Shown here one piece after another: positions 5,563-21,702 of a stretch of DNA of 64,000 nucleotides. Below the pieces are notes generated by a model. It was not told the origin of the DNA, ran no database searches, and was given only the letters and a program-made list of their open reading frames with translations. The position numbers and the translations under genes are program-made. Every line of letters starts with the position of its first letter. Positions within the stretch are counted from its first letter, which is position 1. Source of the DNA: Clostridia bacterium (GTDB taxonomy: Bacteria > Bacillota > Clostridia > Christensenellales > Pumilibacteraceae); contig JAAVYI010000017.1 of NCBI GenBank assembly GCA_022791055.1, forward strand, positions 1-64,000, given 5' to 3'.

Positions 5563-5646
5563 ATGCCGACAAAGGCACTTGACACCCAAAATGAAAAATT
5601 ATTTAAATATTACTGAAATTTACTGAAAAAATATTTAAAAAAACTA

Positions 5647-5675
5647 TTGACAAAGCGGGAAATATGGTCTATAAT
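5647..5675 (+). promoter_or_regulatory. Consensus promoter of the nanE operon
   Basis: A perfect TTGACA (5647-5652), 17 bases, and a perfect TATAAT (5670-5675). Such a strong promoter on a catabolic operon implies repression, which fits the palindrome lying over the -10 box. Confidence 0.92.
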
Positions 5676-5693
5676 GAAAATAGATTTCATAAT
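5671..5693 (+). promoter_or_regulatory. Predicted RpiR operator, nanE copy
   Basis: The palindrome ATAATGAAA-N5-TTTCATAAT (8 of 9 arm positions paired) overlaps the -10 box and start region. The same ATGAAA-N5-TTTCAT core sits at the same place in the rpiR promoter at 20848-20870. A repressor bound here would block RNA polymerase. The assignment to the local RpiR protein is an inference from the shared motif. Confidence 0.75.
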
Positions 5694-5694
5694 T

Positions 5695-5730
5695 ATGCCG
5701 ATATGATGAAAATCATTTGCGTATCGGCAT
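5695..5730 (+). other. Leader hairpin before nanE
   Basis: ATGCCGATA (5695-5703) pairs with TATCGGCAT (5722-5730), and inside it ATGAT/ATCAT (5703-5707 with 5712-5716) forms a short tip. It lies between the predicted transcription start and the ribosome binding site at 5735. It could affect message stability or be incidental; there is no T tract. Confidence 0.45.
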
Positions 5731-5746
5731 GGACGGAGCCGCATTT

Positions 5747-6439
5747 ATGGGAAAATTGCAGAGAGGTTTGATTGTTTCCTGCCAAGCCGCAGAAGGCGAG
5801 CCGCTGTACGGGTGCCAAGTGATGCACTTGTTTGCGCGTTGCGCCGTAGCGGGCGGTGCGGTCGGGATCCGCGCGCTGGCCGATGAGATTCCCGCTATAC
5901 GAAACGAAGTCGACGTTCCCGTGATCGGCTTGACCAAGCGGCACAGCCCCGACAGCGAAGTGTACATAACGCCGAATATGGCCGACGTCAAGCGGCTGAT
6001 CGAGTTAAACTGCGACGCGATCGCCATAGACGCGACGGCACGACGGCGCGTCGGCGGGGAAACGCTCGAGCAGCTCGTTGCCTACGCGCGCAAGCTGTCG
6101 CCCGAAACCGCGCTTGTCGCCGATATAGATACGTATAATAACGCCGTGCGCGCTCTGCAACTGGGATTCGACTACATATCGACCACCTTGCGCGGTTACA
6201 CGGCCGAAACGAAAGACGCCGTAACGCCCGACGTCGATTTTATCCGCAGCGTCAGCCTGCCGCTCAAGGGCAAGCTGATTGTCGAGGGCGGAATTTGGGA
6301 GCCGGCGCAGCTCGAACAGGTACTGCGCTACGATCCGTATGCCGTTGTCATCGGGTCGAGCATTACGCGGCCGATGCTGATCACCGAACGCTTTAATCGG
6401 GTGCTGACGCTGTCCGACAGTGAGGTACGCTCGGCGTGA
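5747..6439 (+). CDS. nanE: N-acetylmannosamine-6-phosphate 2-epimerase
   Basis: Converts ManNAc-6-phosphate to GlcNAc-6-phosphate in the cytoplasm. The TIM-barrel protein (230 residues, normal length) has the family N-terminus GLIVSCQA, the VIGLTKR strand, the Asp/Lys-containing strand region DAIAIDATARRR, and the phosphate-binding end VEGGIW...VVIGSSITRP. The start at 5747 is chosen because GGAG lies 8 bases upstream; earlier in-frame starts sit in the leader hairpin. It is first in the operon, and its stop overlaps the GTG of the GH84-like gene. No sialate aldolase (NanA) is encoded in this window, so the ManNAc may not come from sialic acid. Confidence 0.93.
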   Translation: MGKLQRGLIVSCQAAEGEPLYGCQVMHLFARCAVAGGAVGIRALADEIPAIRNEVDVPVIGLTKRHSPDSEVYITPNMADVKRLIELNCDAIAIDATARRRVGGETLEQLVAYARKLSPETALVADIDTYNNAVRALQLGFDYISTTLRGYTAETKDAVTPDVDFIRSVSLPLKGKLIVEGGIWEPAQLEQVLRYDPYAVVIGSSITRPMLITERFNRVLTLSDSEVRSA

Positions 6440-7866
6440 AAAGCTATCGCAATTTGTTTACATCGGGTGCGCGCGTGCCGATCCGCGACGTGCGCTATGC
6501 GCAAAGCGATTGCGGAAACGACGGTTTCAAACTGCGCGTCGACGCGGCCGGCAACTGCCGAATCGACTACAGCAACGGCCGCGGTAAGCGGTATGCGCTG
6601 CGCGAAGTCGAGGCGATGCAAGGCGCGGCGTTCGTCGGACGGGCGGAGGACTTTGCTGACTTTAGCCGCCGCGGCATCGTCGAGGGATATTACGGCAAGC
6701 CGTACACCGACGAGGACCGCAAAAGCCTACTGGACTTTATGGACGCGGTGCGCATGAACTTCTATTTGTACGCGCCCAAAGACGACCCGTATCACCGCGC
6801 GCAGTGGCGCGAGCCGTATCCGCAGGCAAAACAGGCGGAACTGGCCGCGCTGTGCCGCTACGCAAGCGAGCGCGAGATCGATCTCTGCTACGCGATCAGC
6901 GTCGGCTTGGACATGCGGTACAGTAGCGAGGACGATCTATGCGCGCTGGTCGCAAAACTCAAGGCGATGGAGGCGGTAGGATTCCGCGAATTTGCGCTGT
7001 TGTTCGACGACATCGACCCGGCGCTTAACCCTGCGGACGCCGCCATGTTCGAGTCGCCCGCCAAAGCGCAGGCGGCAACGGTCGAGCAGGTGCAAAAGGC
7101 GCTCGGTAAAAGCGTGCTGTTCTGCCCGACGGACTACTGGCAGAACGACGACACGCCGTACCGCGCCGGCATAAAAGCGCACCTGCCGACCGATACTACC
7201 GTTATGTGGACGGGCTATAATACGGTCGCGGAGTACATAGACAAAGAGGATGCGGCGCGCGCGCGGCAATACTTCGGACACGACTTGATGCTGTGGGACA
7301 ATTACCCGGTCAGCGACTTCATGACCGAACGCCTGTTCTTAGGCGCGCTGCGCAACCGTGACGCCGACCTATATCGCACCCATTCCGGCATGGTGATGAA
7401 CCCGATGGAGTATCCCGAACTGAGCAAGTTCGCGCTCTACACGGCGGCGCAATATATGTGGAATGCGGCGACCTACGACCCCGACCGCGCGCAAAGCGAG
7501 GCGGCGGCCGTGCTGGTGCCGAACGCGCCCGCGGCGGCGCTACGGCTGATCGAGGACAATGCGGCCTGCGTGATGTACGACCCGCCGCTACATGGCGACC
7601 CGATCGAACGCGAGCGCGTTTACCGCAAATTGCGGGCGGCACTCAATCCGCGGCTACTCGACGAACTGAAAGATTACTTTAACTATGCGACGCTCGAATG
7701 TCGGGCATATCGCGCGTTGCAAGCGGGAAAAGATATTAGCAACCTGTTGCCCAAACTCCGGGCGGCCAAGATCCGCACCGCACCCAATCGGTTCGATACG
7801 CTTATGTCGCAAACGACAAGCGACTACAAACCGAAACAGACGCGCGAAAAATACAGAGTTATATAA
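6436..7866 (+). CDS. GH84-like beta-N-acetylglucosaminidase, cytoplasmic
   Basis: A 476-residue protein of the NAGidase/GH84 type (beta-N-acetylglucosaminidase or O-GlcNAcase-like), retaining with substrate assistance from the N-acetyl group. Visible marks are RRGIVEGYYGKPY at the barrel start (about residue 75), YLYAPKDDPYHR, and the catalytic pair Asp191-Asp192 in LLFDDID. Then comes a WTGYN/WDNYPV region lining the N-acetyl pocket. There is no signal peptide, so it acts inside the cell on imported short oligosaccharides. The GTG start overlaps the nanE stop (GTGA). Pairing with NanE and the ROK kinase points to HexNAc-containing substrates; the exact linkage is not evident. Confidence 0.85.
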   Translation: MKSYRNLFTSGARVPIRDVRYAQSDCGNDGFKLRVDAAGNCRIDYSNGRGKRYALREVEAMQGAAFVGRAEDFADFSRRGIVEGYYGKPYTDEDRKSLLDFMDAVRMNFYLYAPKDDPYHRAQWREPYPQAKQAELAALCRYASEREIDLCYAISVGLDMRYSSEDDLCALVAKLKAMEAVGFREFALLFDDIDPALNPADAAMFESPAKAQAATVEQVQKALGKSVLFCPTDYWQNDDTPYRAGIKAHLPTDTTVMWTGYNTVAEYIDKEDAARARQYFGHDLMLWDNYPVSDFMTERLFLGALRNRDADLYRTHSGMVMNPMEYPELSKFALYTAAQYMWNAATYDPDRAQSEAAAVLVPNAPAAALRLIEDNAACVMYDPPLHGDPIERERVYRKLRAALNPRLLDELKDYFNYATLECRAYRALQAGKDISNLLPKLRAAKIRTAPNRFDTLMSQTTSDYKPKQTREKYRVI

Positions 7867-7877
7867 AAGGAATGAGG

Positions 7878-9362
7878 ATGAAAAAGATCGTATTACTGCC
7901 GCTCGACGAGCGCCCTTGCAATTATCGGTATCCGCAAATGCTGTTTCAGGAAAACGCAGCGTTTTCGCTTACCGTGCCGGACGTTTCGATCATGCCCGAC
8001 AAAAAGCAAGCTGCCGACTTCGAGAAGATCCGCGACTTTTTATTTGCGGCTTGCGCCGATGCCGACTGCCTGGTCGTCTCGCTCGAAATGCTGCTGTACG
8101 GCGGGCTGCTGCCGTCGCGGTTGCATCGGCTGTCGACCGAAACGCTTGGAATGCGGCTGAAAGTTTTACAAGAACTGAAAGCGCGGCGGCCGTCGCTGAC
8201 GATCTACGCGATCGGGCTGATCATGCGCTGTCCGCAATATTCTTCGGCTGACGAAGAACCCGATTATTGGGAGATCTGCGGCAAAGAGATGTTCGCGTTC
8301 GGCGTGTGTAAGGACAAGGGCGAGACCGGCGCGCAATATGATGCGCTTGCAAGACAGGTCGCGCCGTACCTCGACGACTTTACGACGCGTCGCGCCGTCA
8401 ATCTCCGTATGCTCGAGCGCGCGCTCGACTGCGTAGGCGACACGATCGACTTTATGGTCATACCGCAAGACGATTCCGCGCCGTACGGTTGGACGGCCAT
8501 CGACCAGCGCAAGATCCGCGCGGCCGTCTCCGACAAGGGCAAAATGCTCGACTGCCTGATCTATCCGGGCGCAGACGAGGCGGGGCTGACGCTGTTGGCG
8601 CGGTACGTCAACAGCGTGGTCGGCACGCCGCGTGTCGCCGTCGATTATTCTTCGTGCGCCGCGCCGAAAGCCATTCCCGCCTTCGAGGATCGGCCGCTCG
8701 GCGAAAGCGTCAAACTGCAACTGGCCGCGGCCGGCTGTTTGCGGGCAGGCGACGAGTTTTCTTCCGATTTTACGTTAATGGTCAACGCGCCGGCAAGCGG
8801 CATGGTGTCGGCGGCCGATGCGAGCGACAGTCGCTCGTACCAAACCGAACGCAGCCTTGCCGAATACGCGCTCAAGATCCGCGACTTAACGCGTTGCGGG
8901 GTGCGCGTAGCGGTGGCCGACGTCGCCTACGCCAACGGCGCCGATACGCAGCTTGTGCGTATGCTCGATAGTGCGAATGTTGCGATGCAAGTGTCGGCCT
9001 ATGCGGGGTGGAACACCTCGTCCAACACGTTGGGAACGGCGATCGCGCAAGCCTGTCTGTTCCGTGCTTGCGGCGACAGTGCGGCGCATAAACGGTTTTT
9101 GGCGCTCAGGTATTTCGAAGATGCGGGCTACTGTGCGTACACCCGCAAAACGGTGTGCGAACGCGATTTGCCCGGGTTGGGACTCAACTACTTCGATGCG
9201 GGCGAGCGGCGCGGCAAGGTCGCGCACATCGTCGCCCAAACGATCGCGGCGCACATGCGCGAGATCATGCCGCACGTCGCGGCGGACTACCGCATCACGC
9301 AGTGCGAAATGCCCTGGAAACGTATGTTCGAGGTCGGCCTGACGGTAGGCGAGACCTTATAA
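7878..9362 (+). CDS. DUF4127 family protein
   Basis: A 494-residue cytoplasmic protein of a family without established function. Its start IVLLPLDERPCNYRYPQ is the family hallmark (PLD-x-RP). Further conserved-looking blocks are LVVSLEMLLYGGLLPSR (about 70), MVIPQDDSAPYGW (about 195) and YAGWNTSSNTLGTAIAQA (about 375), rich in Asp, Asn and Gly as in an alpha/beta enzyme active site. ATG 7878 is preferred to 7872 because AAAAGGA ends at 7871. It lies between a GH84-like enzyme and a surface protein in one operon, so a role in amino-sugar glycan use is likely but unproven. Confidence 0.8.
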   Translation: MKKIVLLPLDERPCNYRYPQMLFQENAAFSLTVPDVSIMPDKKQAADFEKIRDFLFAACADADCLVVSLEMLLYGGLLPSRLHRLSTETLGMRLKVLQELKARRPSLTIYAIGLIMRCPQYSSADEEPDYWEICGKEMFAFGVCKDKGETGAQYDALARQVAPYLDDFTTRRAVNLRMLERALDCVGDTIDFMVIPQDDSAPYGWTAIDQRKIRAAVSDKGKMLDCLIYPGADEAGLTLLARYVNSVVGTPRVAVDYSSCAAPKAIPAFEDRPLGESVKLQLAAAGCLRAGDEFSSDFTLMVNAPASGMVSAADASDSRSYQTERSLAEYALKIRDLTRCGVRVAVADVAYANGADTQLVRMLDSANVAMQVSAYAGWNTSSNTLGTAIAQACLFRACGDSAAHKRFLALRYFEDAGYCAYTRKTVCERDLPGLGLNYFDAGERRGKVAHIVAQTIAAHMREIMPHVAADYRITQCEMPWKRMFEVGLTVGETL

Positions 9363-9388
9363 CAATAACTAGGTGAGGAGGATTCACT

Positions 9389-12300
9389 ATGCGTAAGAGT
9401 ATGTTGCGCAACCGTTTGGTTGCGCTGGCCGTAGCGCTGTGCGCCGTCGCAGCCGGTTGCGCCGCACTGCTGGGCGGCGGGGGGACGACGGCAAAAGCCG
9501 CTGCGCCTACGGTGTACGGCATGAACGGCGCCGAAATTTCGATCGCGGCGTCGAAAGTCGATCCCTTCGTCGTCGAGGACTCCGCGGGAACTTTGACCAA
9601 ACTGAACTTTTCTTTCGGCGAGGACAGCGCGGTATTCACGACCGCCTGGCTGTACCCCGAAACCCCCGAACGCGCGGGCGTGACCGAATACGCATTCGAG
9701 TGGAAAAGCGGCGCGTACCGTTTGAAGCAACGTGCCACGGGGGGGGCCTTTATATACCCGTCAACGGCCTTGTCGTAAGCCTTAAGGACGACAACGACAC
9801 CTGGGCGGCGGCCGCAGTCGGCACGACGCTTACCAAGAACGGAACATTCCCCGACTATATCGGCGCGGTCGATATGAAAGTCGCGTCGGGGACGAGCAAC
9901 TTAGCGCCCGATAAAAAGATCCGCATTCCGCTCACCAAGATGAACGGAACGCGCAAAGAAAACGAGATCGTATATTACAATGCCGAGTGGGGGCCTACGA
10001 CCGGCCAAAACGAGTTCGGCACCGAAGCGCTGTTCGCCTTACAGGATAACGGCGAGTTTAAGATACAAAAAATGCGCGGCGTGCGCAATACGACCGAACT
10101 GAGTCTGAACGCGCGCTCTTTTATCGTGTCCATTCACGGCACATACCGCGCGCTGCTGACGCCCGGGGCGTTCGTCGACGAGGGCGACACCGCGGAGCTG
10201 ATCGGTATGCAGTTCGTCAATCTGACCAAGTCCAATTCGCGTAAACTGACTTTCGTAAACCCGACCGCACCGGTCAAGCCGACCGACGTCGACCTGATCA
10301 CCGACGCGAGCGGCAATACGCCGTTCCCCGGTTTCCGCGCCGAAAACTATCTGATGCTCTACGACAAGGGTTACGACAAAAGCGTATGCTCTGCGTCGAA
10401 CAAGTTCGCCAACTTCACCGGCTGTAACGAGTGGGGGTACGAGGTGCTTGTGCGTCGCACGTCGGCCGAGGGCGCGACGCCGATCACAGGCGTTATCGAG
10501 ACGCACGGCAAGCAGATCGACAGCCTGCTCGACGATCCGTCGTTCATTCTTTCCGGCAACGGCGCGGCCGAAACGTTTTTGATCAATTCGGCTTTAAACG
10601 GCGCGCAGGTCTCGATCGACGCGGGCAATACGGTGACGATCACCACCACGCCGGCCAGCTACGTGACGACCGCCGTCGCGCGGCTTGATACGGTCAACGA
10701 AATGATGCAAACGGCGATCGACGCCAAATATAAACTCAACTATATCGGCGAGGGCGACACCGCGGAAAACAACAAGTGGACGCGCGCAAAAGGGGCCGCC
10801 GAAAAAGCGCTCGGCGCCAAAGACGACGCCGCCGACAAAAAGACGCTGTACGGACTGATGAAACAGTTGCAGCTCGACGAAGAGGCGGAAGTCATCAACA
10901 ACGTGCATTTGGCCGACTTCTACGACCTGTATTTGACGATCATCAACCAAGCGACGCTGATCGAAAGCATGACCTATCAAGGTAACGCCGTCATGAGTAT
11001 CGCGGCCTGGCACCGTCCCGTGGCCGCGCGGGAAAAGACGACCGAGGCGATCCGCGACACGCTCAAGCTGTTCAAGTCGGTCAACATGAATACCGTGTAC
11101 GTCGAAACGTTCTGGAACGGCTACTCGATGAGCGGCAACAGCAAGTACGTCGACTATCATATCGATTTCAAAAACAACGTCTACGAGGGGTACGACGACT
11201 ATCTGTCGGCGTTCATCGGCGAGGCGCATAAACTGGGCATCGAAGTACACGCCTGGGTGGAAGATTTCTTCGTCGGCTATCAAGGGTACGCCGAAAGCAA
11301 CGTGCTGACCGGCAAAAAGGCCAATTCCGACGAGCAGCTTGTGCCGCAGTCGGAGCGCAGCAAGTGGGTGATCCGCGATTACCAGGGCAACGAGTATACG
11401 CAGTTCGAGGGCGGCAAGTATAAGTTTATCGATCCGTCCAATCCCGAAGTGCGCAAGTTTTTAGTCGACTACTATACCGAACTTTTGACAGAGTACGACC
11501 TCGACGGCATCAACCTCGACTACATTCGCTACCCGGTGCAGAACTTCTACGGCTACGACAAGGACAATCCCGACGTGCCGTATGACCACGGTTACAGCGA
11601 GTTTTCGGCCAACAAATTTTTGACCGAGCAGAACGTGGCGGACAAGAACAGAACGCTCAGCTATCTCAAGCGGCAGCTCAGCAAAAAGACCAGTTTCGAC
11701 GCAGAGGAGACGGCGGCGGCCTGGAGCGCATTCAAGATCCGCCAGATCAACGAATTTGTCGCAGAGGTCAAAGCGGCGGTTGACGCTTGCGAGGCCGATC
11801 GTGTCAAGAAAGGCACGTACAGCGAAAACAATATCATCATTTCGACGTCGGTGTTCCCCGATGCCGACGTAACCGAAAAGAAGAGCCAGGATTGGTTCAG
11901 CTGGGTGCAAGCCGGCTTGATCGAAGTCACCACGCCGATGGCGTATTACACCAACGCCAACACCGTTGCGCAGCGTATCATGTCGATGGTGGGTAAGATC
12001 GGCGGCGTATCCTTCAACTACGGCGGCATTGCGCCGTACTTCATGGGACTGAACGCATACGAGGAAGTGACGCAGGCGCTATCCGCCCTAAAAGGCGGCG
12101 CGTTCGGAACGGTCATCTTCGATTCCAAAACGATCATGAATTCGGAGTTGGCGCGTACCTATCTGTCGAACGGCATTTACGGCAGCGCGGCCGTCGTACC
12201 GCATAAGCAGATCGATAAGCTGCTGGCCGCCTTTACCGACGAGATGAAGTCGCGCGCCGACCTCTACGAGATCGAGGGCAACAAGCTGACCGCGTATAAC

Positions 12301-12720
12301 GCCGCGCTCGACGCGCTTAAAGCCATGCCGTTCTCGACGGCCGAAGAGATCCGGGCGATCATGACCGCCGTCTATCAGATCCAAAACAACGCCAAAAACT
12401 ACGCTTCGGGACACGCGACGACGCGTATCGCCGAAGAAATGGCCAACCTCAATAACGTACTCGACGCGCATCTGTCGCGCTACTATATCGACAAAGAAGG
12501 TTGGATCCCGGCCGAGAGCATTCGCCCCGACCGCGTCAATCCGCCGAAGCCCGACCCCGATCCGGACGACGGAGACGGCGACGACAATCCGCCTGCGCCC
12601 GCGCCCGAAAAAGGTTGCGGCTGCGGGTCGAGTATAGGCGTAGCGACGGGCGGCGCCGCGCTCATACTGCTTTTAGTTGGACTTAGCGTCGCGTTTACGC
12701 GCAAGAGAAAGCAGAACTGA
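9389..12720 (+). CDS. Surface GHL10-like glycosyl hydrolase, frameshifted at a G8 tract
   Basis: Two frames join into one protein of about 1110 residues. The first frame from ATG 9389 (GGAGG upstream) gives a signal peptide ending in an Ala-rich cleavage region. The second continues from the G run at 9739-9746 to 12720. One more G would restore a single frame. The middle (about residues 525-870) is the GHL10/YddW-like barrel: MNTVYVETFWNGY, EAHKLGIEVHAWVEDF, LDGINLDYIRYP and a later VTTPMAYY. The C-terminus has a Pro/Asp-rich spacer, CGCGSS and one membrane helix with a basic tail, so the protein is displayed on the surface. Its role is probably binding or cleaving extracellular glycan for the importer genes downstream. 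Whether the frameshift is real cannot be decided from one sequence. Confidence 0.8.
9739..9746 (+). repeat. G8 homopolymer at the frameshift
   Basis: Eight G in a row, at exactly the point where the reading frame of the surface protein changes. Nine G would make ACG-GGG-GGG-GGC-CTT and keep the frame. Either phase variation, a fixed mutation or an assembly error could explain it. Confidence 0.85.
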
Positions 12721-12768
12721 ATTTCGTAACAGGCGTGAAAACACGTTTGAAATTTAAGGAGGGTTAAT

Positions 12769-15030
12769 ATGAAACACATCAAAACCGTTTGGACCGCGCT
12801 GATGTTGGCGGCGGTCATGGCGCTCGGCTTGGGGCTGGCGGCCTGCGGCACACCGCAGTTTACCATCACGTTCGAGTCGAACGGAGGCAGTGCGGTCGCT
12901 GCGGTGACCGTAGACAAAGACGGCAAGGTCGAAAAACCTGCCGACCCGACCAAAGAAGATTGCATTTTCGACGGTTGGTTTAAGGACGCAACGTTCGGCG
13001 AAAGCTGGAACTTCGGCACCGACACGGTGACGGGCGACGTCACGCTGTACGCGAAGTGGACGCCGCTGGCCGATTGCGCCGTAACGTTCGATTCGCAAGG
13101 CGGCAGCGCCGTACAGTCGGCGACCGTCAAGGCGGGCAAGACGCTGACAAAGCCGACCGACCCGACGCGCGCGCGTTTCCGTTTCGACGGATGGTTTAAG
13201 GATGCGGCAGGCGAAACGGCCTGGAATTTCGACACCGACACGGTGACGGGCGACATCACGCTGTACGCAAAATGGACGCAGGTCGAGGCCGGCGAGATCG
13301 CTTGGGTCAAACCTGCGGCCGGCAGCGTCATTATTCCCGACGACATCGGACTGTTTAACCCTGACTATCGCAAGACGCTCGAAGATCTTGCGCCCGACGT
13401 GTACGCCACCGAGGACGGCGAGCGCTTAGCGACCATTGTTGTCGATACGGATGCCGATTTCGGGTACGACGCAGAGACGAACAAACTGACCCCGGGCAGC
13501 TACACCGTTACCTATGAGACGCGCGACAGCATGAACGAATCGCACGAAGAGACGTTCGACGTCGTCGTCAAATCGGCCGAAGAAGTCAACTACTATGTGT
13601 ATGCGAATCAGGATAAGAGCGGCAAGTCGGGCGTCTGCGGGATCGACTTCAGCGCTGCCGTCGGCGGCGTGCGGATCCGCGTAGCGCACGACAAATATTT
13701 CGAAGTGACCGACGTGGACAATTTGCCCGAAGCGATCCGCAACCCGCATTCGGAAGGCAAAATTATCGACTTCGACGATCCGTTTATCATTAAGAACGCC
13801 GACGACGTAGCGCTCACGCTGAACACGGCCGACGCAATGGCCGAGTATACCGTGTTCGACAGCCACGGCGTTGTCGTGTTCGGTTGGAACGGCGCGAACG
13901 GCAGAGGCGTAGACGAGAACAACCGGTACACGCTCGGCAAAAACGGCGGTATCAACGCTACGACGGTTACCGTACCGGCCGGCGGCTATGTGCTGATCGT
14001 CGGTTACACGGCCGGCGGCAACTGGTACGGGAAAGTAACGGGCGGCAAAGCGATTTCCGCCGACGATTACTGGGGAATAAAGGCAGCGGGCGACGGCGTG
14101 CCGCAGTACGACATGGACGGCAGACAGTTCGCCTCGACCGGTTTCAACTACCGCTGGAAGAACGTCGTACAACTCAAAAAAGGTGCCGACGTGTTGACGG
14201 GCGAATATGTCAACCAAGCGCCGTATATGACGAAAGGATATAACGGCTTTGACATTCTGCGTAGCGACACGCAGTTGACGGAAGAGGAACTGAAAACGCA
14301 AATTCTTGCGGCTATCGGGTTTAGGGACGATGCGGGAACGTTTGATGTGACCGACGATATTGACGTCGTCGCCGCCAATATCAGCCTCAACGCAACCGAC
14401 ATTGCCGCTATCGACAACACGGTAGAAGCCCAGTACGCCGTCAGAATCGAAGTTACCGACTCTACCGACGCTACGCTGAAAGCCGAGTTTTCCATTGTTG
14501 TAACGATTGCGGACAAATATTTGAAAATCGGTGACTCGGTGACTTGGGCAAATCCCACGGTTGTCAAAAATGCAAAATTGACGTCCTCGCCCGGCGACGG
14601 CAAACTATATGTTTGGGATTCTACGGCAACGGCCGATAACATTCATGAGCATAAGTATACCGGTTGTGCGGTTATAAATAAGAATACCGGTAAGATTATT
14701 GCCAGCGCAGACTGGAGCAATTATTACGACCATAGCGGGGTCAAGAAAACGTTGAAAGACGGTTTGGGAATTACGACCGGCGACGGCAAATATGCGGCGC
14801 GCACCTTGTTTACCAACTATATGACCGATGCGGGTAGAACCGAAATTGCATATACGGACGTTGCAAAAGAAGATTTGTTGATCCTTGTAGTTGTTCAAGG
14901 CGGCACGGAGAATCATAAAACGTATGGGCAGAAGTTCAATACCTGCTGTGACGCCGGTTATGCAAACGCCTATGTCGAAATCAAGGGCTTGACGGGGTTG
15001 AGCAATACGGCGAAACCCGTTACGGAGTAA
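12769..15030 (+). CDS. Lipoprotein with two InlB B-repeats
   Basis: A 753-residue exported lipoprotein: signal peptide with lipobox LAAC, Cys26. Two InlB/Listeria-Bacteroides B-repeats follow (about 30-97 and 100-169), each ending in VTGDxTLYAKWT with a central FDGWFKDA. The rest (about 175-753) is a long extracellular region with beta-rich segments and no family I recognise, including a GGYVLIVGYTAGG stretch near 405. B-repeats usually act as protein or glycan adhesion modules. It lies 48 bases after the surface hydrolase and 2 bases before the solute-binding protein, so it likely captures substrate at the surface. From about 14240 on, codons look more A/T-rich than in the first part. Confidence 0.8.
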   Translation: MKHIKTVWTALMLAAVMALGLGLAACGTPQFTITFESNGGSAVAAVTVDKDGKVEKPADPTKEDCIFDGWFKDATFGESWNFGTDTVTGDVTLYAKWTPLADCAVTFDSQGGSAVQSATVKAGKTLTKPTDPTRARFRFDGWFKDAAGETAWNFDTDTVTGDITLYAKWTQVEAGEIAWVKPAAGSVIIPDDIGLFNPDYRKTLEDLAPDVYATEDGERLATIVVDTDADFGYDAETNKLTPGSYTVTYETRDSMNESHEETFDVVVKSAEEVNYYVYANQDKSGKSGVCGIDFSAAVGGVRIRVAHDKYFEVTDVDNLPEAIRNPHSEGKIIDFDDPFIIKNADDVALTLNTADAMAEYTVFDSHGVVVFGWNGANGRGVDENNRYTLGKNGGINATTVTVPAGGYVLIVGYTAGGNWYGKVTGGKAISADDYWGIKAAGDGVPQYDMDGRQFASTGFNYRWKNVVQLKKGADVLTGEYVNQAPYMTKGYNGFDILRSDTQLTEEELKTQILAAIGFRDDAGTFDVTDDIDVVAANISLNATDIAAIDNTVEAQYAVRIEVTDSTDATLKAEFSIVVTIADKYLKIGDSVTWANPTVVKNAKLTSSPGDGKLYVWDSTATADNIHEHKYTGCAVINKNTGKIIASADWSNYYDHSGVKKTLKDGLGITTGDGKYAARTLFTNYMTDAGRTEIAYTDVAKEDLLILVVVQGGTENHKTYGQKFNTCCDAGYANAYVEIKGLTGLSNTAKPVTE

Positions 15031-15032
15031 AC

Positions 15033-16589
15033 ATGAAAAAAATACTGACAATACTATTGAGTTTGGCGTTGTGCTTAGGGGCGCTTGCGGGCTGTAAGTT
15101 CGAAAAGGTGGAGATCAACAAGATCAATCCCGATGCGGACGTCTCGAGTAAGCCGGCGCTCAAACTGCTGCTGCCGTATGTGTCCGACACCATGGAGTCG
15201 AATGCGGCCATACCGCTGATTAACGAGATGACGGGCTATACGGTGTCTTACGACCAGTTGCCGACCGGCGCGAGCGCGGAGAGCAATCTGACTGGCATCA
15301 TCGTCGACAAAAAGACCGACTATCACGCGCTCAAACTGACCAAAAACCAGTTCAACAAATATGCGGTCATGCACGCGTCGTTTGCCGACATTACCGACGT
15401 TGTCAATTCGCCGAAGTTCTCGGTGATGAAGAACGCGATCAAGCAGGAGGCTTGGGACGCCGTGACCTATAACGGCCGTATCCTGGGCATTCCCGACAGC
15501 GCGTCCAACAACAACATCGACAAGTCGATCATCATTCGCAAGGACATTATGTATACTTTAACGAACCCCGACACGGGCAAGAAGTATACCGAAGTGCCGA
15601 CGACGTTCGACGGCTTCAAAAAGCTGTTAAAGGCGTTTCAGGACTCGAAACCGGGCAACAAGACTGCGTTCACGCTGCCCAGCAATATCCAGGTCGTAGG
15701 GCCGATCGCCGCGTCGTTCGGCGTCGACCAGGAATGGCAGGACATGGACGGCGAGCTGACGCACATGATCGAAAACCCGGGATTTTCCGACTATGCGGCG
15801 GCGATGAAAGCGCTCAAAAACGAGGGGCTTTTGGATGCGGCCATGCAAACCAACAGTTTTTCGCACTGCGCGCAGGAGTTCGCCAAAGGCAATGCGATCG
15901 CCACGGTGTCGAACTTCTGGGAAATGGCGACGGTGTCCGAACAGTTGAATGCCAACGGCGGCAAGAAAATGGAGAACTGCGTGGACTTTGCTTACGGTTT
16001 TAAAGACAGTGAAGGCAAGGTAAAGACCTGGCAGTCGTCGGGCGTCAGCTATGTGACCGTCGTACCCAACTGGATGGCGGATAGCGGCATTCACGTCATG
16101 CACATGATCCGGGAAAAGCTGAAAGACGAGAATTTTATACGCTTGGTTGCGGGCGAGCTTGGCACGCACTATCAATACAACAGCATTACCCGCGAGTACG
16201 AGCCGACCGCGCAATACAAGACGGATAAGACGAGCGCCGATCACTTTGTCACCGGCACCAACGACAACATTTACAACACCTGGTGGACGCAGGTCGTCAT
16301 CAAGGGCAACGATGCGTATTACTTCCAGTGGAAAGCGACCAACACCGACGCGTTCAATTCCGACGATCACAAGCTGATCGGGGTACTCAATCCCGTCAAG
16401 TTCGCGCCGCCGCTTGCGACGTATTCCAACCGCGCGGCCGGTATGGAAGATTACTTCAATTCCGAAGTCACCAAGCTGATCTACGGCAACGACAGCGCGG
16501 TAACGGTGGAATCGATTCGCGCCGGCTGGTCGGGCGGGGACAACGCCGCCGCCGTGCGTGAGATCAAAGACTGGTACAAAAACAAATAA
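15033..16589 (+). CDS. Sugar ABC transporter solute-binding lipoprotein
   Basis: A 518-residue extracellular binding protein. The signal peptide ends in the lipobox LAGC (Cys21). The body resembles the LipO/YtcQ-type family 1 binding proteins for complex sugars (LLLPYVSD...INEMTGYTV near the start, AIATVSNFWEMA in the middle), which are longer than simple maltose-type proteins. It lies 2 bases after the InlB-repeat gene and upstream of two matching permeases. The ligand is probably an amino-sugar or mannose-containing oligosaccharide, judged only from the neighbours. A G+C-rich hairpin after the stop may protect its message. Confidence 0.85.
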   Translation: MKKILTILLSLALCLGALAGCKFEKVEINKINPDADVSSKPALKLLLPYVSDTMESNAAIPLINEMTGYTVSYDQLPTGASAESNLTGIIVDKKTDYHALKLTKNQFNKYAVMHASFADITDVVNSPKFSVMKNAIKQEAWDAVTYNGRILGIPDSASNNNIDKSIIIRKDIMYTLTNPDTGKKYTEVPTTFDGFKKLLKAFQDSKPGNKTAFTLPSNIQVVGPIAASFGVDQEWQDMDGELTHMIENPGFSDYAAAMKALKNEGLLDAAMQTNSFSHCAQEFAKGNAIATVSNFWEMATVSEQLNANGGKKMENCVDFAYGFKDSEGKVKTWQSSGVSYVTVVPNWMADSGIHVMHMIREKLKDENFIRLVAGELGTHYQYNSITREYEPTAQYKTDKTSADHFVTGTNDNIYNTWWTQVVIKGNDAYYFQWKATNTDAFNSDDHKLIGVLNPVKFAPPLATYSNRAAGMEDYFNSEVTKLIYGNDSAVTVESIRAGWSGGDNAAAVREIKDWYKNK

Positions 16590-16612
16590 TACAACTTTTA
16601 AACCGTTCCGGC

Positions 16613-16636
16613 GGGGCGCAGGTTTGTATGCGCCCC
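16613..16636 (+). other. Intercistronic hairpin after the binding-protein gene
   Basis: GGGGCGCA (16613-16620) pairs perfectly with TGCGCCCC (16629-16636). There is no T tract, so it is not a terminator. In binding-protein operons such hairpins commonly slow 3' decay and keep the binding protein in excess over permeases. It also buries the ATG at 16628. Confidence 0.65.
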
Positions 16637-16681
16637 GTCCGCGAAACGGATTTCACGCGCCTACACGGATTCGAGGTCTAT

Positions 16682-17620
16682 ATGGTACAAGCACGGTTGA
16701 AAGAAAAATCGAAATTCAAAAAATACGGCTCGCTCATGCTGTTTTTACTGCCGGGCGTGCTGCTTGCCTTTGTGTTCTGCTACGTGCCGATGGCCGGGCT
16801 GATCATGGCGTTCAAGCAAGAGATCGACTTGACGACGTACACCAGTTCGATCGCGTCGATTATCATGACGCCGTGGGGCGGCTTTTCGCAGTTTGCCAAA
16901 CTGTTTGCGGCAAACTCCGACTTCCTGCGCGTACTGGGGAACACGCTGTTTATATCGGTGATGAAGATCGTTTTGGTGTTTCCCGTGCCGATCATTCTCG
17001 CCATTCTGATCACCGAAGTCAAGAATAAGGTATTCAACAAAGCGGTGCAATCGGTCATGTACCTGCCGCACTTTCTGTCCTGGGCGGTGGTCGCCAGCGT
17101 GTTCATGACGTTCATGCACCCCAACACCGGCGCGCTCAACGCCATACTCAAGCTGTTCGGCTGTTCGATCGACGTTTCTTCGGCCAATCAGTTCCCCTGG
17201 ATTATGGTGCTGACGACGGCATGGAAAGACATCGGCTGGTCGGCGGTCGCGTATATCGCGGCGATCCTTGCGATCGATACCGAACAGTACGAGGCGGCCA
17301 AGATCGACGGGGCGGGCAAGCTCAAACAAATTTGGCATATCACGCTGCCGGGGATCGCCGGCACGGTGGCCGTGCTGCTGATCATGCGTATCGGCTATCT
17401 GATGGACGCGGGGTTCGAGCAGATCTACGCCATGCTGACGCCGACCGCCGAATCGAAGGGCGAGATCATCGGCACATATATTTACAAGCTGGCGATCAAA
17501 AACGGCGGCAGCTATGCGCTGACGACGGCGGCCGGTCTGTTCAATTCGGTCATCTCGCTGGTATTGGTGCTGGGCGGCAATCTGTTCTGCAAGAAAGTGT
17601 TTAACAGGAGTATCTGGTAA
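16682..17620 (+). CDS. Sugar ABC transporter permease (LplB/YtcP type, first subunit)
   Basis: A 312-residue inner-membrane permease with about six membrane helices beginning at SLMLFLLPGVLLAFVFCYVP. The EAA loop that contacts the ATPase reads EAAKIDGAGKLKQIWHITLP (about 203-222). The start at 16682 has GAGGT upstream; the ATG 54 bases earlier lies in a strong hairpin. Its TAA shares a base with the ATG of the second permease. It partners with the preceding binding protein. No ATPase gene is in the locus, so a shared MsmX-like ATPase elsewhere must power it. Confidence 0.9.
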   Translation: MVQARLKEKSKFKKYGSLMLFLLPGVLLAFVFCYVPMAGLIMAFKQEIDLTTYTSSIASIIMTPWGGFSQFAKLFAANSDFLRVLGNTLFISVMKIVLVFPVPIILAILITEVKNKVFNKAVQSVMYLPHFLSWAVVASVFMTFMHPNTGALNAILKLFGCSIDVSSANQFPWIMVLTTAWKDIGWSAVAYIAAILAIDTEQYEAAKIDGAGKLKQIWHITLPGIAGTVAVLLIMRIGYLMDAGFEQIYAMLTPTAESKGEIIGTYIYKLAIKNGGSYALTTAAGLFNSVISLVLVLGGNLFCKKVFNRSIW

Positions 17621-18495
17621 TGAGCGTTTCGACACACATTCGCAGCAAAGGCGATACGGCATTCAATATCGTCAACAGCATTCTGCTCGTTCTCTTTATG
17701 CTGTTTACGCTGATGCCGATACTCAATATTTTGGCGACCGCGCTCAGTACGCACTCGCAAACGGTGCTGTTCTGGCCGGTCAAGTTCGACCTGTTCGCCG
17801 TCAAAACGGTGCTGACCGAGCCGAAGTTTTACCGCGCGTTTTTGGTGACGATCATCGTCACGGTGTGCGGCACGGCTATCAGCGTTTTGGCCATGGCGCT
17901 CGCCGCCTATCCGCTGTCTAAAAAGGACTTGCCGCTGCGCCGCACGGTGATGATCTACTTTTTCATCTCGATGCTGTTTTCGGGCGGCATGGTGCCGAAC
18001 TACATTTTGATGTCGACGCTCAAACTGACCAACACGCTGTTTGCGCTCATTCTGCCGTCGGCCGTACAAGTGTTTCACCTCATTCTGATCAAAAACTTTT
18101 TCGAAGGTCTCCCGGAGGCGCTCGAGGAGTCGGCGCGCATCGACGGGGCGAACAACTTGCAAATTCTGTTCCGCATCATTTTTCCCATATCGATTTCGAT
18201 GCTGGTGACGGTCTGCCTGTTTACCGCCGTTGTGTACTGGAACAACTATTTCAACGCCTTGATGTATATTTCGGCCGCGCATTCCAATCTGTACCCGCTG
18301 CCGTTCTATATCGTCAACGTTACCGAACAGTTCCGCGACCCCAACGCGGCGATCGTGTTGGGCGAAAAGTTCAAGTACGAGGAGAATATCAAAGCGGCGA
18401 CGATCATTCTGTCGATGCTGCCGATCGTTTGCACCTATCCGTTCTTTTTAAAGTATTTTACCAAAGGCGTTGTCGTCGGGGCGGTGAAGGGATGA
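17620..18495 (+). CDS. Sugar ABC transporter permease (second subunit)
   Basis: A 291-residue permease of the MalG/YtcP type with six predicted helices. The EAA loop is EALEESARIDGANNLQILFR (about 166-185), followed by the FPISISMLVT helix. TAATG overlap with the first permease and ATGA overlap with the ROK kinase show tight coupling. Together the two permeases form the channel of a type I sugar importer. Confidence 0.92.
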   Translation: MSVSTHIRSKGDTAFNIVNSILLVLFMLFTLMPILNILATALSTHSQTVLFWPVKFDLFAVKTVLTEPKFYRAFLVTIIVTVCGTAISVLAMALAAYPLSKKDLPLRRTVMIYFFISMLFSGGMVPNYILMSTLKLTNTLFALILPSAVQVFHLILIKNFFEGLPEALEESARIDGANNLQILFRIIFPISISMLVTVCLFTAVVYWNNYFNALMYISAAHSNLYPLPFYIVNVTEQFRDPNAAIVLGEKFKYEENIKAATIILSMLPIVCTYPFFLKYFTKGVVVGAVKG

Positions 18496-19334
18496 GACTG
18501 GCTGCTATCGATTTGGGCGGCACGGCCGTCAAGGGCGCGCATCTATGCGACGGAAAGATCATCCGCCGCCACCGCGCGCCGACCGTGTGCGTCGACCGAC
18601 AAACCGTACTCGATTCGGTCTGTACGGTCATCGACGCGTGCAAGCCGTTCGACGGCATTGCCGTCTCGTCCGCCGGCGACATCGATCCGTATCGCGGCGT
18701 TTGCACGTATGCAACCGACAATCTTCCCGGCTTTACCGGGCTGGATATTCGCGCGTATTTGTCGGCGCGATACGGCGTTCCTGTGTCTGTCATAAACGAC
18801 GGCCACGCCGCGCTGTTGGGCGAGGCGACGGCGCGCACGCATAACGAGCCGACCGTCATGCTGACGCTGGGTACGGGCGTAGGCGGGGCATACTACGACG
18901 GCAAAGCGGTCGTATTCGGCGACGATTTTACGTTCGGCCGATTCGGACATCTGCCGCTTGTCGAAAACGGGCTGAAATGCACCTGCGGCAAACGCGGCTG
19001 TATCGAAGCATATATTTCGGGGTCGGCGGTCGTGCGGGCGGCGTCGGCGATCGATTTGACGCCCGCGGAACTGTTCGTTTCGGACAGGCCGCAAGCCGTA
19101 GCGGCGGTCGAAACGTTCTGCCGCGATCTGGCTGCGACGCTCGAGACGATACACGCGCAAGCGCCGTTCGCGCTGTGTATCATCGGCGGCGGCGTGGCGC
19201 GTTCGGCGGCGGCGTGGCTGCCGATACTCAAAAAATATACGACGCGGCGGGTCGAGGCGGCGACACTGGGTGACGATGCCGGACTGCTCGGCGCGGCGGC
19301 GTGGTTTCGGGAGGCTGTATGCGGTACGATGTAG
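18492..19334 (+). CDS. ROK family sugar kinase, possibly ManNAc kinase
   Basis: A 280-residue kinase with the ATP-binding DLGGTAVKGAHL at the N-terminus, the sugar-binding region GVPVSVINDGHAA, the GTGVGGAYYDGK loop and the zinc motif CTCGKRGCIEAY (about 162-173). It lacks the winged-helix domain of ROK repressors, so it is an enzyme. Because the operon begins with NanE, the simplest role is phosphorylation of ManNAc to ManNAc-6-phosphate; GlcNAc or glucose are alternatives. The ATG lies inside the permease stop, and its 3' end overlaps the FAD gene by 16 bases. Confidence 0.88.
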   Translation: MRLAAIDLGGTAVKGAHLCDGKIIRRHRAPTVCVDRQTVLDSVCTVIDACKPFDGIAVSSAGDIDPYRGVCTYATDNLPGFTGLDIRAYLSARYGVPVSVINDGHAALLGEATARTHNEPTVMLTLGTGVGGAYYDGKAVVFGDDFTFGRFGHLPLVENGLKCTCGKRGCIEAYISGSAVVRAASAIDLTPAELFVSDRPQAVAAVETFCRDLAATLETIHAQAPFALCIIGGGVARSAAAWLPILKKYTTRRVEAATLGDDAGLLGAAAWFREAVCGTM

Positions 19335-20827
19335 CAGTCATCGGCGCGGGATTGGGCGGCTTGAACGCCGCGATTTCGGCCGCTAAAAACGGGTGTCGGG
19401 TCATTTTGACCGAGCAGTACGACCGCATCGGCGGGCAGTTGACCGCGCAGGCCGTGCCGCCCGACGAACATCGCTGGATCGAAACGACCGGTTGTACGGC
19501 GTCCTATCGTGCATACCGCAACGAGGTGCGCGACCGTTATCGCAACCACCCGCAAATTATCGACGCGCTCAAGTCGGCCGCGGCGTTCTGCCCGGGCGGT
19601 TCGTCGGTGTCGCGGTTGGCACATCCGCCTAAGTTGGCGCAGGAACTGTTGGACGCGCGGCTCAAGCCCTATCTCGACAGCGGCGCGGTTACGCTATGTT
19701 TACACTGCGCGCCCGTAAGCGCCGGGCGCGAGAACGGACATTTGTACACCGTCACCATGTCGGACGGCAAGACGATCGAGGCCGACTATTTTATCGACGC
19801 TACCGAGACGGGCGACTTGTTGGCGGTGTGCGGCGCGGGCTACGTGACGGGTGCGGAATCGCGCTTGGAGACGGGCGAGGCGCTCGCGCCCGAAACGGCT
19901 TGCCCGACCGACATGCAGCCGGTCACGTGGGTGGCCGCTTGCGACTACAAGGCGGGGCGCAGCGAGCCGATCGAGCGGCCGGCCGAATACGACTTTTTCC
20001 GCAAGTACCCGATGCCTTATGACAAATACGACGTGCTGGGTATGCGCGGTCCCGACTCGCGGACGGGAAAGTCGAAACGGTTCGGCTTTTTCAACGGCGA
20101 GACCGACGGCGACGAAAAGCTGTTCGGCCTGTTTACCTACCGCCGAATCGTCAACGCCGCGCATTTTAAGGCCGGAGAGCCGGTCGACGTGACGCTGATC
20201 AACTGGCCGCAAAACGACTATTTTATGGGCAATATCTTCGGCACGGGCGACGACGCGCACCACCGATACATGGCGCGGCAGTTGACGCTCAGTCTGATTT
20301 ACTGGTTGCAGACCGAAGGCGGCTATAAGGGCTTGGGGCTTAGGACGGATATTTTGGGAACGTCGGACGGCCTTGCCGCCGCGCCCTATATCCGCGAATC
20401 GCGCCGCATGAAAGCGCGCTACACCGTGACGGCCGACGACGTGACCGAAGGGCGCGTATATAAGCATAGCGTCGGCGTCGGGCAGTATCATATCGATTTG
20501 CATATCACCACCGTAACGCATACGTTTTTGTTTGCGCCGACAAAGCCGTTCGAGATCCCTTTGGGCGCGCTCATTTCGGCCGATACCGACAACCTTTTGG
20601 CCGGTTGCAAAAACATCGGCACCACGCATTTGACCAACGGCTGTTACCGCACGCACCCGGTCGAGTGGAATATCGGCGAGTCGGCCGGCCTGCTTGCGGC
20701 GTACTGCGCGCGACAGAAGATCGAGCCGTATGAAGTGGAGCAAAACGAGCGGCATTTTTCCGAACTGGAACGGCTTTTACACGACAACGGTATTCTCAAT
20801 CATTGGCCGCGGCACGTTTTTTCTTGA
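19319..20827 (+). CDS. FAD-dependent oxidoreductase (FAD_oxidored/PF12831 type)
   Basis: A 502-residue flavoprotein. The dinucleotide fold is at the extreme N-terminus (DVAVIGAGLGGLNAAISAAK, then ILTEQYDRIGGQ), a second FAD block is YFIDATETGDLLAVCG (about 155), and TDNLLAGCKNIGTTHLTNG near 425 resembles the family's C-terminal FAD contact. Start 19319 has GGGAGG before it. Members of this family occur in many polysaccharide loci of gut bacteria, where their sugar or sugar-acid substrate is generally not proven. Here it may oxidise a product of the locus. The rpiR promoter begins over its stop codon. Confidence 0.82.
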   Translation: MRYDVAVIGAGLGGLNAAISAAKNGCRVILTEQYDRIGGQLTAQAVPPDEHRWIETTGCTASYRAYRNEVRDRYRNHPQIIDALKSAAAFCPGGSSVSRLAHPPKLAQELLDARLKPYLDSGAVTLCLHCAPVSAGRENGHLYTVTMSDGKTIEADYFIDATETGDLLAVCGAGYVTGAESRLETGEALAPETACPTDMQPVTWVAACDYKAGRSEPIERPAEYDFFRKYPMPYDKYDVLGMRGPDSRTGKSKRFGFFNGETDGDEKLFGLFTYRRIVNAAHFKAGEPVDVTLINWPQNDYFMGNIFGTGDDAHHRYMARQLTLSLIYWLQTEGGYKGLGLRTDILGTSDGLAAAPYIRESRRMKARYTVTADDVTEGRVYKHSVGVGQYHIDLHITTVTHTFLFAPTKPFEIPLGALISADTDNLLAGCKNIGTTHLTNGCYRTHPVEWNIGESAGLLAAYCARQKIEPYEVEQNERHFSELERLLHDNGILNHWPRHVFS

Positions 20828-20852
20828 CGGCGCGCGAAAAAGGGTATATAAT
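20824..20852 (+). promoter_or_regulatory. Promoter of rpiR-GH38
   Basis: TTGACG (20824-20829), 17 bases, TATAAT (20847-20852). The -35 box overlaps the stop of the FAD gene, so the regulator can be made both from this promoter and by read-through. Confidence 0.88.
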
Positions 20853-20870
20853 GAAATAAATTTTCATTAT
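20848..20870 (+). promoter_or_regulatory. Predicted RpiR operator, autoregulatory copy
   Basis: A perfect palindrome with 9-bp arms, ATAATGAAA-N5-TTTCATTAT, overlapping the -10 box and start point. It shares core, spacing and position with the nanE operator at 5671-5693. This implies that the regulator represses itself and the nanE operon together. Confidence 0.82.
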
Positions 20871-20883
20871 GCAGGGGGTCGCC

Positions 20884-21702
20884 GTGCTGGGAAAAGTATT
20901 CGAACGGGTGGACGCATACCGCGACAACGCAACAAAGACCGAACGTAAATTTATCGACCAACTCAAAGACATGGATCGCAACAGCCTGATCTATTTGTCG
21001 ATCACCGATTTGGCCGAATCGTTGGGCGTGGCGGAGGCTACCGTATTGCGGTTTTGCCGCAAGCTGGGGTACAAGGGATTTCAAGATTTCAAATTGCATC
21101 TTTCGCAGGACATTGCAACCGACGTCGGCGACGACGAGTCCAAGCCGAAGCGGTTGGCCGACGAAATGGCCGATTCGATTCTACAGGCCTATAAGCAGCT
21201 CGACTACGAAGAATGCTTACGGGTGGCCGATAAGATCATCGGCGCGCGCAAGCTGTGCGTGTTCGCGGTGGGCAACTCGCAGATCGCGGCGCTCGCCGTC
21301 AAGGCGCGGCTGATCAAGGCGGGGATCAACGCCGAAAACGCATCCGACAACCACGCGCAAGCGATCATTACCGCAAATTTAAGTAAAAACGATCTGCTGA
21401 TCTTATTCAGCGTTTCGGGCGGAACGCTCGACATCATCAAGCTGGCCGAAATCGCGCACGCCAACGGTACGCCGGTCGTCGTCATTACCAACTATTCCAA
21501 ATCGCCGTTAAGCAAGTACGCCGATTATTTATTGTACACCTCGCGCAAAGAGGCGGCTTACGAGGGCGGGTCGCTTGCGACCGTTGCCTCGCAGATCTAC
21601 ATAACCGACGTGCTGTGTACCGCCGTATTCGAGCGGTTAGGCGAGCGCGCGACCGAAAACGCCGGAAAAGCGTCGGGCGCGGTCAGCGACAAGTCGGTTT
21701 GA
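20884..21702 (+). CDS. RpiR (MurR/RpiR) family transcriptional regulator
   Basis: A 272-residue regulator. The N-terminal HTH_6 domain (about 1-75) includes LSITDLAESLGVAEATVLRFCRKLGYKGFQDFK, and the C-terminal SIS domain (about 110-250) has VFAVGNSQIAAL and LFSVSGGTLDIIKLAEIAHANGTPVVVITN, the phosphosugar pocket. The GTG at 20884 is preferred because AGGGGG lies at 20873-20878; the ATG at 20869 overlaps the operator. The likely effector is a phosphorylated amino sugar such as ManNAc-6-P or GlcNAc-6-P, which would release the repressor from the two palindromes. It is followed 33 bases later by the GH38 gene in the same direction. Confidence 0.92.
   Translation: MLGKVFERVDAYRDNATKTERKFIDQLKDMDRNSLIYLSITDLAESLGVAEATVLRFCRKLGYKGFQDFKLHLSQDIATDVGDDESKPKRLADEMADSILQAYKQLDYEECLRVADKIIGARKLCVFAVGNSQIAALAVKARLIKAGINAENASDNHAQAIITANLSKNDLLILFSVSGGTLDIIKLAEIAHANGTPVVVITNYSKSPLSKYADYLLYTSRKEAAYEGGSLATVASQIYITDVLCTAVFERLGERATENAGKASGAVSDKSV

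Follow-up and report, generated by a model that had tools for sequence, protein, structure and literature searches.

Predicted TGAAA-N5-TTTCA operator of a NanR-like RpiR regulator at an amino-sugar gene block of a gut Clostridia genome

Two promoters of an amino-sugar gene block in the window (the whole stretch of 64,000 nucleotides analyzed here) share the palindrome ATGAAA-N5-TTTCAT. The RpiR regulator encoded in the block very probably binds there, a prediction based on recurrence of the site at the corresponding genes of about a dozen related gut bacteria. In the reading considered probable, both promoters would be held off by a NanR-like RpiR tetramer and released by ManNAc-6-P, with TGAAA-N5-TTTCA as the operator. 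The sites, their genomic rarity, conservation and spacing, and the conserved DNA-contact and phosphate-binding residues were computed directly.

Palindromes at the nanE and rpiR promoters

The promoters and sites are as follows, with scores from a matrix trained on relatives only.

5591..5607, + strand: upstream operator-like site 1, ATGAAAAATTATTTAAA; 56 bp before the -35 start; matrix score 21.5
5623..5639, + strand: upstream operator-like site 2, CTGAAAAAATATTTAAA; 24 bp before the -35 start; matrix score 17.5
5647..5675, + strand: nanE promoter, TTGACA (5647-5652)-17-TATAAT (5670-5675); consensus match 12/12
5671..5693, + strand: predicted nanE operator with perfect core; conserved in relatives
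5706..5722, + strand: weak fourth site, ATGAAAATCATTTGCGT; 32 bp past the main nanE site; score 9.2
20824..20852, + strand: rpiR promoter, TTGACG (20824-20829)-17-TATAAT (20847-20852); consensus match 11/12
20848..20870, + strand: predicted rpiR operator with perfect core; matrix score 27.8

An earlier note had described both palindromes as having arms of 8 or 9 paired bases and identical spacing and position. The coordinates were reproduced (cores ATGAAA-N5-TTTCAT at 5674-5690 and 20851-20867), the arms pair at eight of nine bases at nanE (one internal mismatch, A5673/A5691) and at nine contiguous bases at rpiR, and at both promoters, each with a 17-nt spacer, the palindrome begins 27 nt past the first base of the -35 box. 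Its center coincides with the predicted transcription start (5682 at nanE, 20859 at rpiR), and the two promoters are the top two sigma-70-type matches within 5.5-25.2 kb. For rpiR, the GTG at 20884 (after CAGGGGG) is more likely to be the start codon than the ATG at 20869, which overlaps the palindrome.

A pattern search of the 2.17-Mb genome yielded two perfect ATGAAA-N5-TTTCAT sites, located at the nanE and rpiR promoters only, against 0.15 expected genome-wide from the first-order composition of the window; the matrix was applied to parts of the genome and pattern searches to the remainder. The motif is thus not common at unrelated promoters: the sole other intergenic one-mismatch site (C48:83237) adjoins a paralogous rpiR in an RpiR/NanE/ROK/DUF4127 cluster on contig C48, and the eight remaining one-mismatch sites all lie within reading frames or on start codons. 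The shorter core TGAAA-N5-TTTCA is not over-represented genome-wide (five sites versus seven for the reversed control), which leaves location, the outer A/T and conservation as the basis of the case. One such core site, C33:24863 (TGAAAAACTTTTTCA), is intergenic and lies 3' of nagA, where it has no clear promoter role.

The two upstream sites at the nanE promoter (5591-5607 and 5623-5639) were absent from the earlier note. They are 32 bp apart from center to center, as in a MurR-type tandem operator. A separation of 31-32 bp, equal to three helical turns, occurs in 9 of 22 site pairs across the family, and six pairs at this distance were observed against a shuffle mean of 0.01; such pairs are expected if a tetramer bridges two sites. 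The window rpiR promoter has one site only and no tandem, and the fourth nanE site may be a chance match. Looping between upstream and downstream sites is not claimed, the distances (51-111 bp) having no consistent helical phase.

Conservation in relatives

About a dozen Clostridia MAGs with orthologous clusters keep the motif at the equivalent genes. A site with exactly N5 and up to two mismatches was found upstream of nanE in 10 of 10 regions (shuffle mean 0.94) and, with up to two mismatches, upstream of rpiR or a GH84-rpiR operon in 9 of 11 regions (shuffle mean 0.74); L083 and L084 lack a site in their rpiR regions, which counts against the operator reading. Other spacer lengths gave zero or one region at up to one mismatch, and when all half-sites and spacers were compared, TGAAA-N5-TTTCA was the most widely shared exact palindrome (15/23 regions). 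Chance occurrence in A/T-rich DNA is ruled out by the genome-wide count, the spacer control and the shuffles. The +27 position is repeated at the rpiR-type promoters of L074, L077 and L079. At nanE, the strongest site lies 5' of the -35 box in most relatives, and sites recur at -24 (the position of site 5623 relative to the -35 box), -43 and -56. Among 49 more distant RpiR homologues no enrichment was found (4 of 49 at N5 versus 2-10 at other spacers), which rules out a motif general to RpiR genes; the motif is linked to the subfamily of the window RpiR.

The gene block and its regulator

The proposed unit extends from nanE to the FAD oxidoreductase gene (5.7-20.8 kb) and includes rpiR-GH38 (20.9-24.6 kb).

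5747..6439, + strand: nanE, ManNAc-6-P 2-epimerase; PF04131 and NF002231 over cut-off
6436..7866, + strand: GH84-type beta-N-acetylglucosaminidase-like protein; PF07555, 323 bits
7872..9362, + strand: DUF4127 protein; PF13552, 462 bits
9439..12720 (start provisional), + strand: GHL10-domain protein; PF02638
12769..15030, + strand: lipoprotein-like protein with Listeria-Bacteroides repeats; PF09479, lipobox-like N-terminus
15033..16589, + strand: putative solute-binding lipoprotein of an ABC importer; adjoins the permeases, lipobox-like N-terminus, no Pfam family matched
16628-17620 and 17620-18495, + strand: two ABC permeases; PF00528, the second slightly below cut-off
18429..19334 (true start likely 3' of 18429), + strand: ROK kinase; PF00480
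19301..20827, + strand: FAD-dependent oxidoreductase; PF12831
20884..21702 (open frame from 20869), + strand: rpiR, NanR/MurR-like regulator; PF01418, PF01380
21736..24639, + strand: GH38 alpha-mannosidase, second gene of the rpiR unit; PF01074, PF07748

The DUF4127 protein gave a confident structure model with no credible match in the PDB. The ROK kinase is nearest to N-acetylmannosamine kinase, yet its NF003461 match (109 bits) is below the cut-off of 283. No nanA was detected in the genome (assembly 97% complete): the best TIGR00683 match, a DapA-type relative at 42747-43601 of the window, reached 106 bits against a cut-off of 382, and the likely signal would therefore be ManNAc-6-P that does not derive from sialic acid.

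The regulator belongs to the MurR/RpiR family (HTH_6 PF01418, 72.8 bits; SIS PF01380, 70.1 bits; both over cut-off), and its gene is accompanied by nanE and a ManNAc-kinase-like ROK gene in the window and in relatives. Its closest solved relative is V. vulnificus NanR (4IVN, E 2e-29), with aligned phosphate ligands. The ligands S137, S181, S183 and T186 correspond to Ser135, Ser179, Ser181 and Thr184 of S. pneumoniae NanR. In an alignment through L082, the sugar-selecting Arg148, Asp160 and Tyr229 of that protein are replaced by or equivalent to Lys150, His162 and Tyr231, the second position being His in V. vulnificus NanR as well; given Lys150 for Arg148 and His162 for Asp160, the ligand could be another phosphosugar. 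V. vulnificus NanR binds ManNAc-6-P and has two adjacent binding regions (PMC12713135); its regulon differs in including sialic acid catabolism, and its minimal operator is not defined.

From these sequence features we infer that RpiR (20884-21702) would bind each TGAAA-N5-TTTCA palindrome as a dimer, that tetramers could span pairs of sites with a separation of about 32 bp, and that the bound protein would repress rather than activate, the perfect sites centered on the predicted transcription starts suggesting a block to RNA polymerase at both window promoters. The repressed units would be nanE to the FAD oxidoreductase gene, for import and catabolism, and rpiR-GH38, which contains the regulator's own gene. 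The most likely inducer would be ManNAc-6-phosphate, the substrate of NanE, formed by the ROK kinase acting on an imported ManNAc-containing sugar. The earlier note had predicted one switch for about 19 kb. This reading is supported, as neither of two outcomes that the note named as refuting it, frequent occurrence of the motif at unrelated promoters and lack of conservation in relatives, was seen. The arrangement is more elaborate, since the nanE promoter has its upstream doublet and the genome encodes another regulator of this subfamily and contains a third site.

Known systems and alternative readings

In C. perfringens, NanR is likewise an RpiR protein binding the nanE promoter, and a GAAAAATATTTTC element is located at transcription starts (PMC4509764). 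Its printed sequence corresponds to GAAA-N5-TTTC around an A/T center, matching the core and spacing found here; it is a proposed rather than a proven NanR binding site (PMC4509764). The regulon there is one for sialic acid, with nanA and sialidases (PMC4509764), whereas nanA was not detected here. S. pneumoniae NanR, also an RpiR protein, acts at a nanE operon through TGAAA arms, the G of which is contacted by Arg56 (PMC12713135); this residue aligns with R61 of the window RpiR. Its sites are TCTGAAA-N4-TTTCA (PMC12713135), in contrast to N5 in both window sites, and its central minor-groove Arg67 is replaced by Gln72 in the window RpiR. E. coli MurR is a repressor with two 15-bp sites 17 bp apart (32 bp center to center) over its promoter, for which a tetramer bridge was proposed (PMC12713135); by site layout the nanE doublet shares this distance, whereas effector (MurNAc-6-P) and genes differ.

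Regulator sites 5' of the -35 box are more typical of activators, and the position of the strongest nanE site in most relatives counts against repression. A dual regulator, which would use the start-site operator to repress its own promoter and, with ManNAc-6-P, the -56/-24 doublet to activate nanE, is possible but unlikely. The recurrent upstream positions speak for it, as does S. pneumoniae NanR, a known activator of a sialic acid regulon, which differs from the repressor proposed here and acts from a site some 55 bp 5' of the -35 box (PMC12713135), a placement shared by several nanE promoters here. However, the window nanE start is also covered by a perfect site, and the near-consensus -35/-10 boxes at both window promoters should need no activator. 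Similarly doubtful is an extended version, in which position decides whether RpiR represses or activates (predicted nanE doublet centers at about -83 and -51, three helical turns apart), the C48 paralog shares the sites, and two sialic-acid-independent ManNAc clusters, including the unstudied DUF4127, are controlled.

That the sites serve the C48 paralog instead, or are shared by both paralogs in cross-regulation of the two ManNAc clusters, is improbable. The paralog is 49% identical to the window RpiR, has a nearly identical recognition helix and its own one-mismatch site, and groups with regulators that carry the motif in a moderately supported part of the tree; some sites may be bound mainly by it. 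The gene of the window RpiR, however, adjoins both perfect sites, and sites accompany its orthologues as well. An RNA hairpin at the 5' end of the mRNA is a very improbable explanation: the palindrome would be partly transcribed at the window promoters, but only one arm would be in the RNA if transcription begins at its center, and the many sites 5' of the -35 box, among them the strongest nanE site of most relatives, disfavor it. CcpA catabolite-repression (cre) sites, whose arms TGAAA/TTTCA resemble (PMC12713135, PMC6528599), can be dismissed, since the cre box (a 14-16 bp palindrome) is shorter by one base and has CG in its middle, whereas the sites here need N5 (N4: zero or one region at up to one mismatch) and have an A/T matrix center nearly devoid of C and G.

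Repression by the NanR-like RpiR tetramer, the preferred reading, would add a new, well-supported case to a type of switch already known. It would define TGAAA-N5-TTTCA, often in pairs at 31-32 bp, as a specific operator and assign a regulon to an uncharacterized RpiR subfamily of gut Clostridia. It would also connect DUF4127, GHL10, GH84-type and GH38 proteins with the metabolism of ManNAc-6-P in a genome where no sialic acid lyase was detected. As the N4/N5 difference from pneumococcal NanR accompanies the loss of the central minor-groove arginine, a rule for RpiR operator spacing becomes testable.

Putative operators at the nanE and rpiR promoters

The palindrome ATGAAA-N5-TTTCAT is present at both promoters named in the earlier note, with paired arms of the length and the common placement claimed there:

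5671-5693: nanE site, core 5674-5690, centre 5682, extended arms 8/9 paired (mismatch A5673/A5691); promoter TTGACA-17-TATAAT at 5647 (12/12 consensus match)
20848-20870: rpiR site, core 20851-20867, centre 20859, extended arms 9/9 paired; promoter TTGACG-17-TATAAT at 20824 (11/12 consensus match)

These are the two top-scoring sigma-A-type promoters of the 20-kb region. In each, the palindrome starts 27 nt past the first -35 base, so that its centre coincides with the predicted transcription start. The perfect motif is rare, the only two matches in the 2.17-Mb genome being these sites (0.15 expected from composition).

The unit comprises, in order, nanE, a GH84-type gene, DUF4127, GHL10, a repeat lipoprotein, a putative binding protein, two ABC permeases, a ROK kinase and an FAD oxidoreductase, with no intergenic gap above 76 nt; next come the promoter of rpiR, rpiR itself and GH38. 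In the related genome G007, of the same family, a largely syntenic operon runs from nanE to rpiR, and rpiR overlaps the oxidoreductase gene and lacks an operator of its own. The single strong site there lies at nanE, which is the layout predicted for a single-switch operon.

Conservation and doublet architecture

Orthologues of RpiR (45-65% identity) are present in Clostridia MAGs, usually in the order (GH84)-rpiR-GH38-nanE-DUF4127-GHL10. The motif is kept upstream of nanE in 10/10 regions at up to two mismatches and 7/10 at up to one (shuffle means 0.94 and 0.09), and upstream of rpiR or GH84-rpiR operons in 9/11 and 7/11 (0.74 and 0.06), the independent cases being somewhat fewer than these counts because some MAGs are closely related (L072/L073 and L074/L077). 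Spacers other than 5 matched only 0-1 regions at up to one mismatch. A motif-blind search of 23 regions (every 5-base half-site, spacers 0-13) ranked TGAAA-N5-TTTCA first (15 regions). The whole genomes of three relatives each have between two and six copies of exact ATGAAA-N5-TTTCA, those at the cluster promoters among them, and no excess was found among 49 more distant RpiR genes. The proposed RpiR switch over the nanE and rpiR units is supported, motif and predicted regulator being linked about as strongly as comparative genomics allows.

A matrix trained on the relatives' main sites, with window and secondary sites left out, scored the window sites at 27.8 (rpiR), 22.9 (nanE), 21.5 (5591) and 17.5 (5623). 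Nine of 22 site pairs are 31 or 32 bp apart, every other spacing accounting for at most two. Six secondary sites lie 31/32 bp from a main site (shuffle mean 0.01, maximum 1). Offsets from the -35 box recur at -24 (6 cases), -56 (4), -43 (4) and +27/28 (4), one duplicate dropped; random placement put six cases into a single bin in 0.4% of trials. A distance of 32 base pairs equals three helical turns. It is also the centre distance of the two 15-bp sites of E. coli MurR, which lie 17 bp apart (47 bp overall) and are proposed to be bridged by a tetramer (PMC12713135).

One-mismatch sites number nine in the genome, and eight of them lie inside reading frames or on start codons. The ninth (ATGAAATAAAATTTTAT, position 83237 of contig C48) lies about 114 bp past a second rpiR and 59 bp ahead of the -35 box of a 1090-residue gene leading a second cluster (permeases, GDSL esterase, DUF4127, ROK, NanE, GH36). 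This paralog is 49% identical to the window RpiR; in the tree it groups, at moderate support (91/87 and 83/65), with motif-bearing regulators. The promoter serving the 1090-residue gene (L033:15280-15380, on C48) also carries a palindrome, GGAGT-N3-ACTCC, 3' of the -10 box, together with the direct repeat TTTTACTTCAAATACTTG / TTTTACTCCAAATATTTG, which is imperfect; an additional regulator might bind here. An unusual run, TTGACGGGGGGGGGTTCT, is common to two family promoters of different genomes (L033:15297 and L078:5593).

DUF4127 (PF13552) accompanies nanE in both clusters and in nearly all related ones:

7872-9362: window copy
L034:6118-7653: C48 copy
L036, L058, L067, L074-L085: further loci

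The family is rare (12/396 genomes of the order), with invariant motifs PLDERPCN, QDDS and GWNT. Its structure model is confident (pLDDT 91); sequence search found no PDB relative, fold search no credible match (TM on the query no higher than 0.24), and the literature searched no mention. DUF4127 could represent an enzyme in ManNAc metabolism that has so far gone unrecognised.

Regulator, signal and published elements

Among solved proteins V. vulnificus NanR is closest (E 2e-29); it is a repressor responsive to ManNAc-6-P (PMC12713135). With residues numbered from ATG 20869, R61, invariant across the alignment, aligns with S. pneumoniae NanR Arg56, which touches the G of TGAAA, and Gln72 with Arg67, which enters the minor groove in the middle of an N4 palindrome (PMC12713135). 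The change from Arg67 to Gln72 could plausibly account for the N5 spacer, as a correlation only. The phosphate-binding residues are kept; at the sugar-selecting positions, Arg148 and Asp160 of S. pneumoniae NanR are Lys150 and His162. Because nanE and a NanK-like ROK kinase lie within the unit, nagA lies on contig C33 and nanA was not detected in this genome, the signal is most likely ManNAc-6-P, made from an imported ManNAc-containing source that is not free sialic acid. Adjoining the importer/GHL10/GH94/nagA cluster, nagB is broken into two reading frames (C33:7902-8617; L168 about 1403-2118), through assembly error or decay.

A palindrome centred over the predicted transcription start of each promoter, both being strong otherwise, fits repression as the regulator's mode of action. 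At nanE the protein may instead activate, or do both, since the upstream doublet resembles the S. pneumoniae NanR activator layout, in which the site precedes the -35 box by about 55 bp.

No description of this regulon was found in the literature searched. The nearest published element, that proposed for C. perfringens NanR, is printed as GAAAAATATTTTC (GAAA-N5-TTTC) and lies at nan gene transcription starts (PMC4509764); it shares the N5 spacing, so this group is not alone in having it, whereas the S. pneumoniae NanR spacer is N4. A perfect ATGAAA-N6-TTTCAT (ATGAAAGCGATTTTTCAT) stands upstream of a more distant RpiR gene of Pumilibacter intestinalis (L090), a single case hinting that operator spacing may vary between subfamilies.

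The system is best placed within the known RpiR/NanR-MurR kind of switch rather than in a kind of its own; its operator doublet, spaced by three helical turns, recurs across the family.
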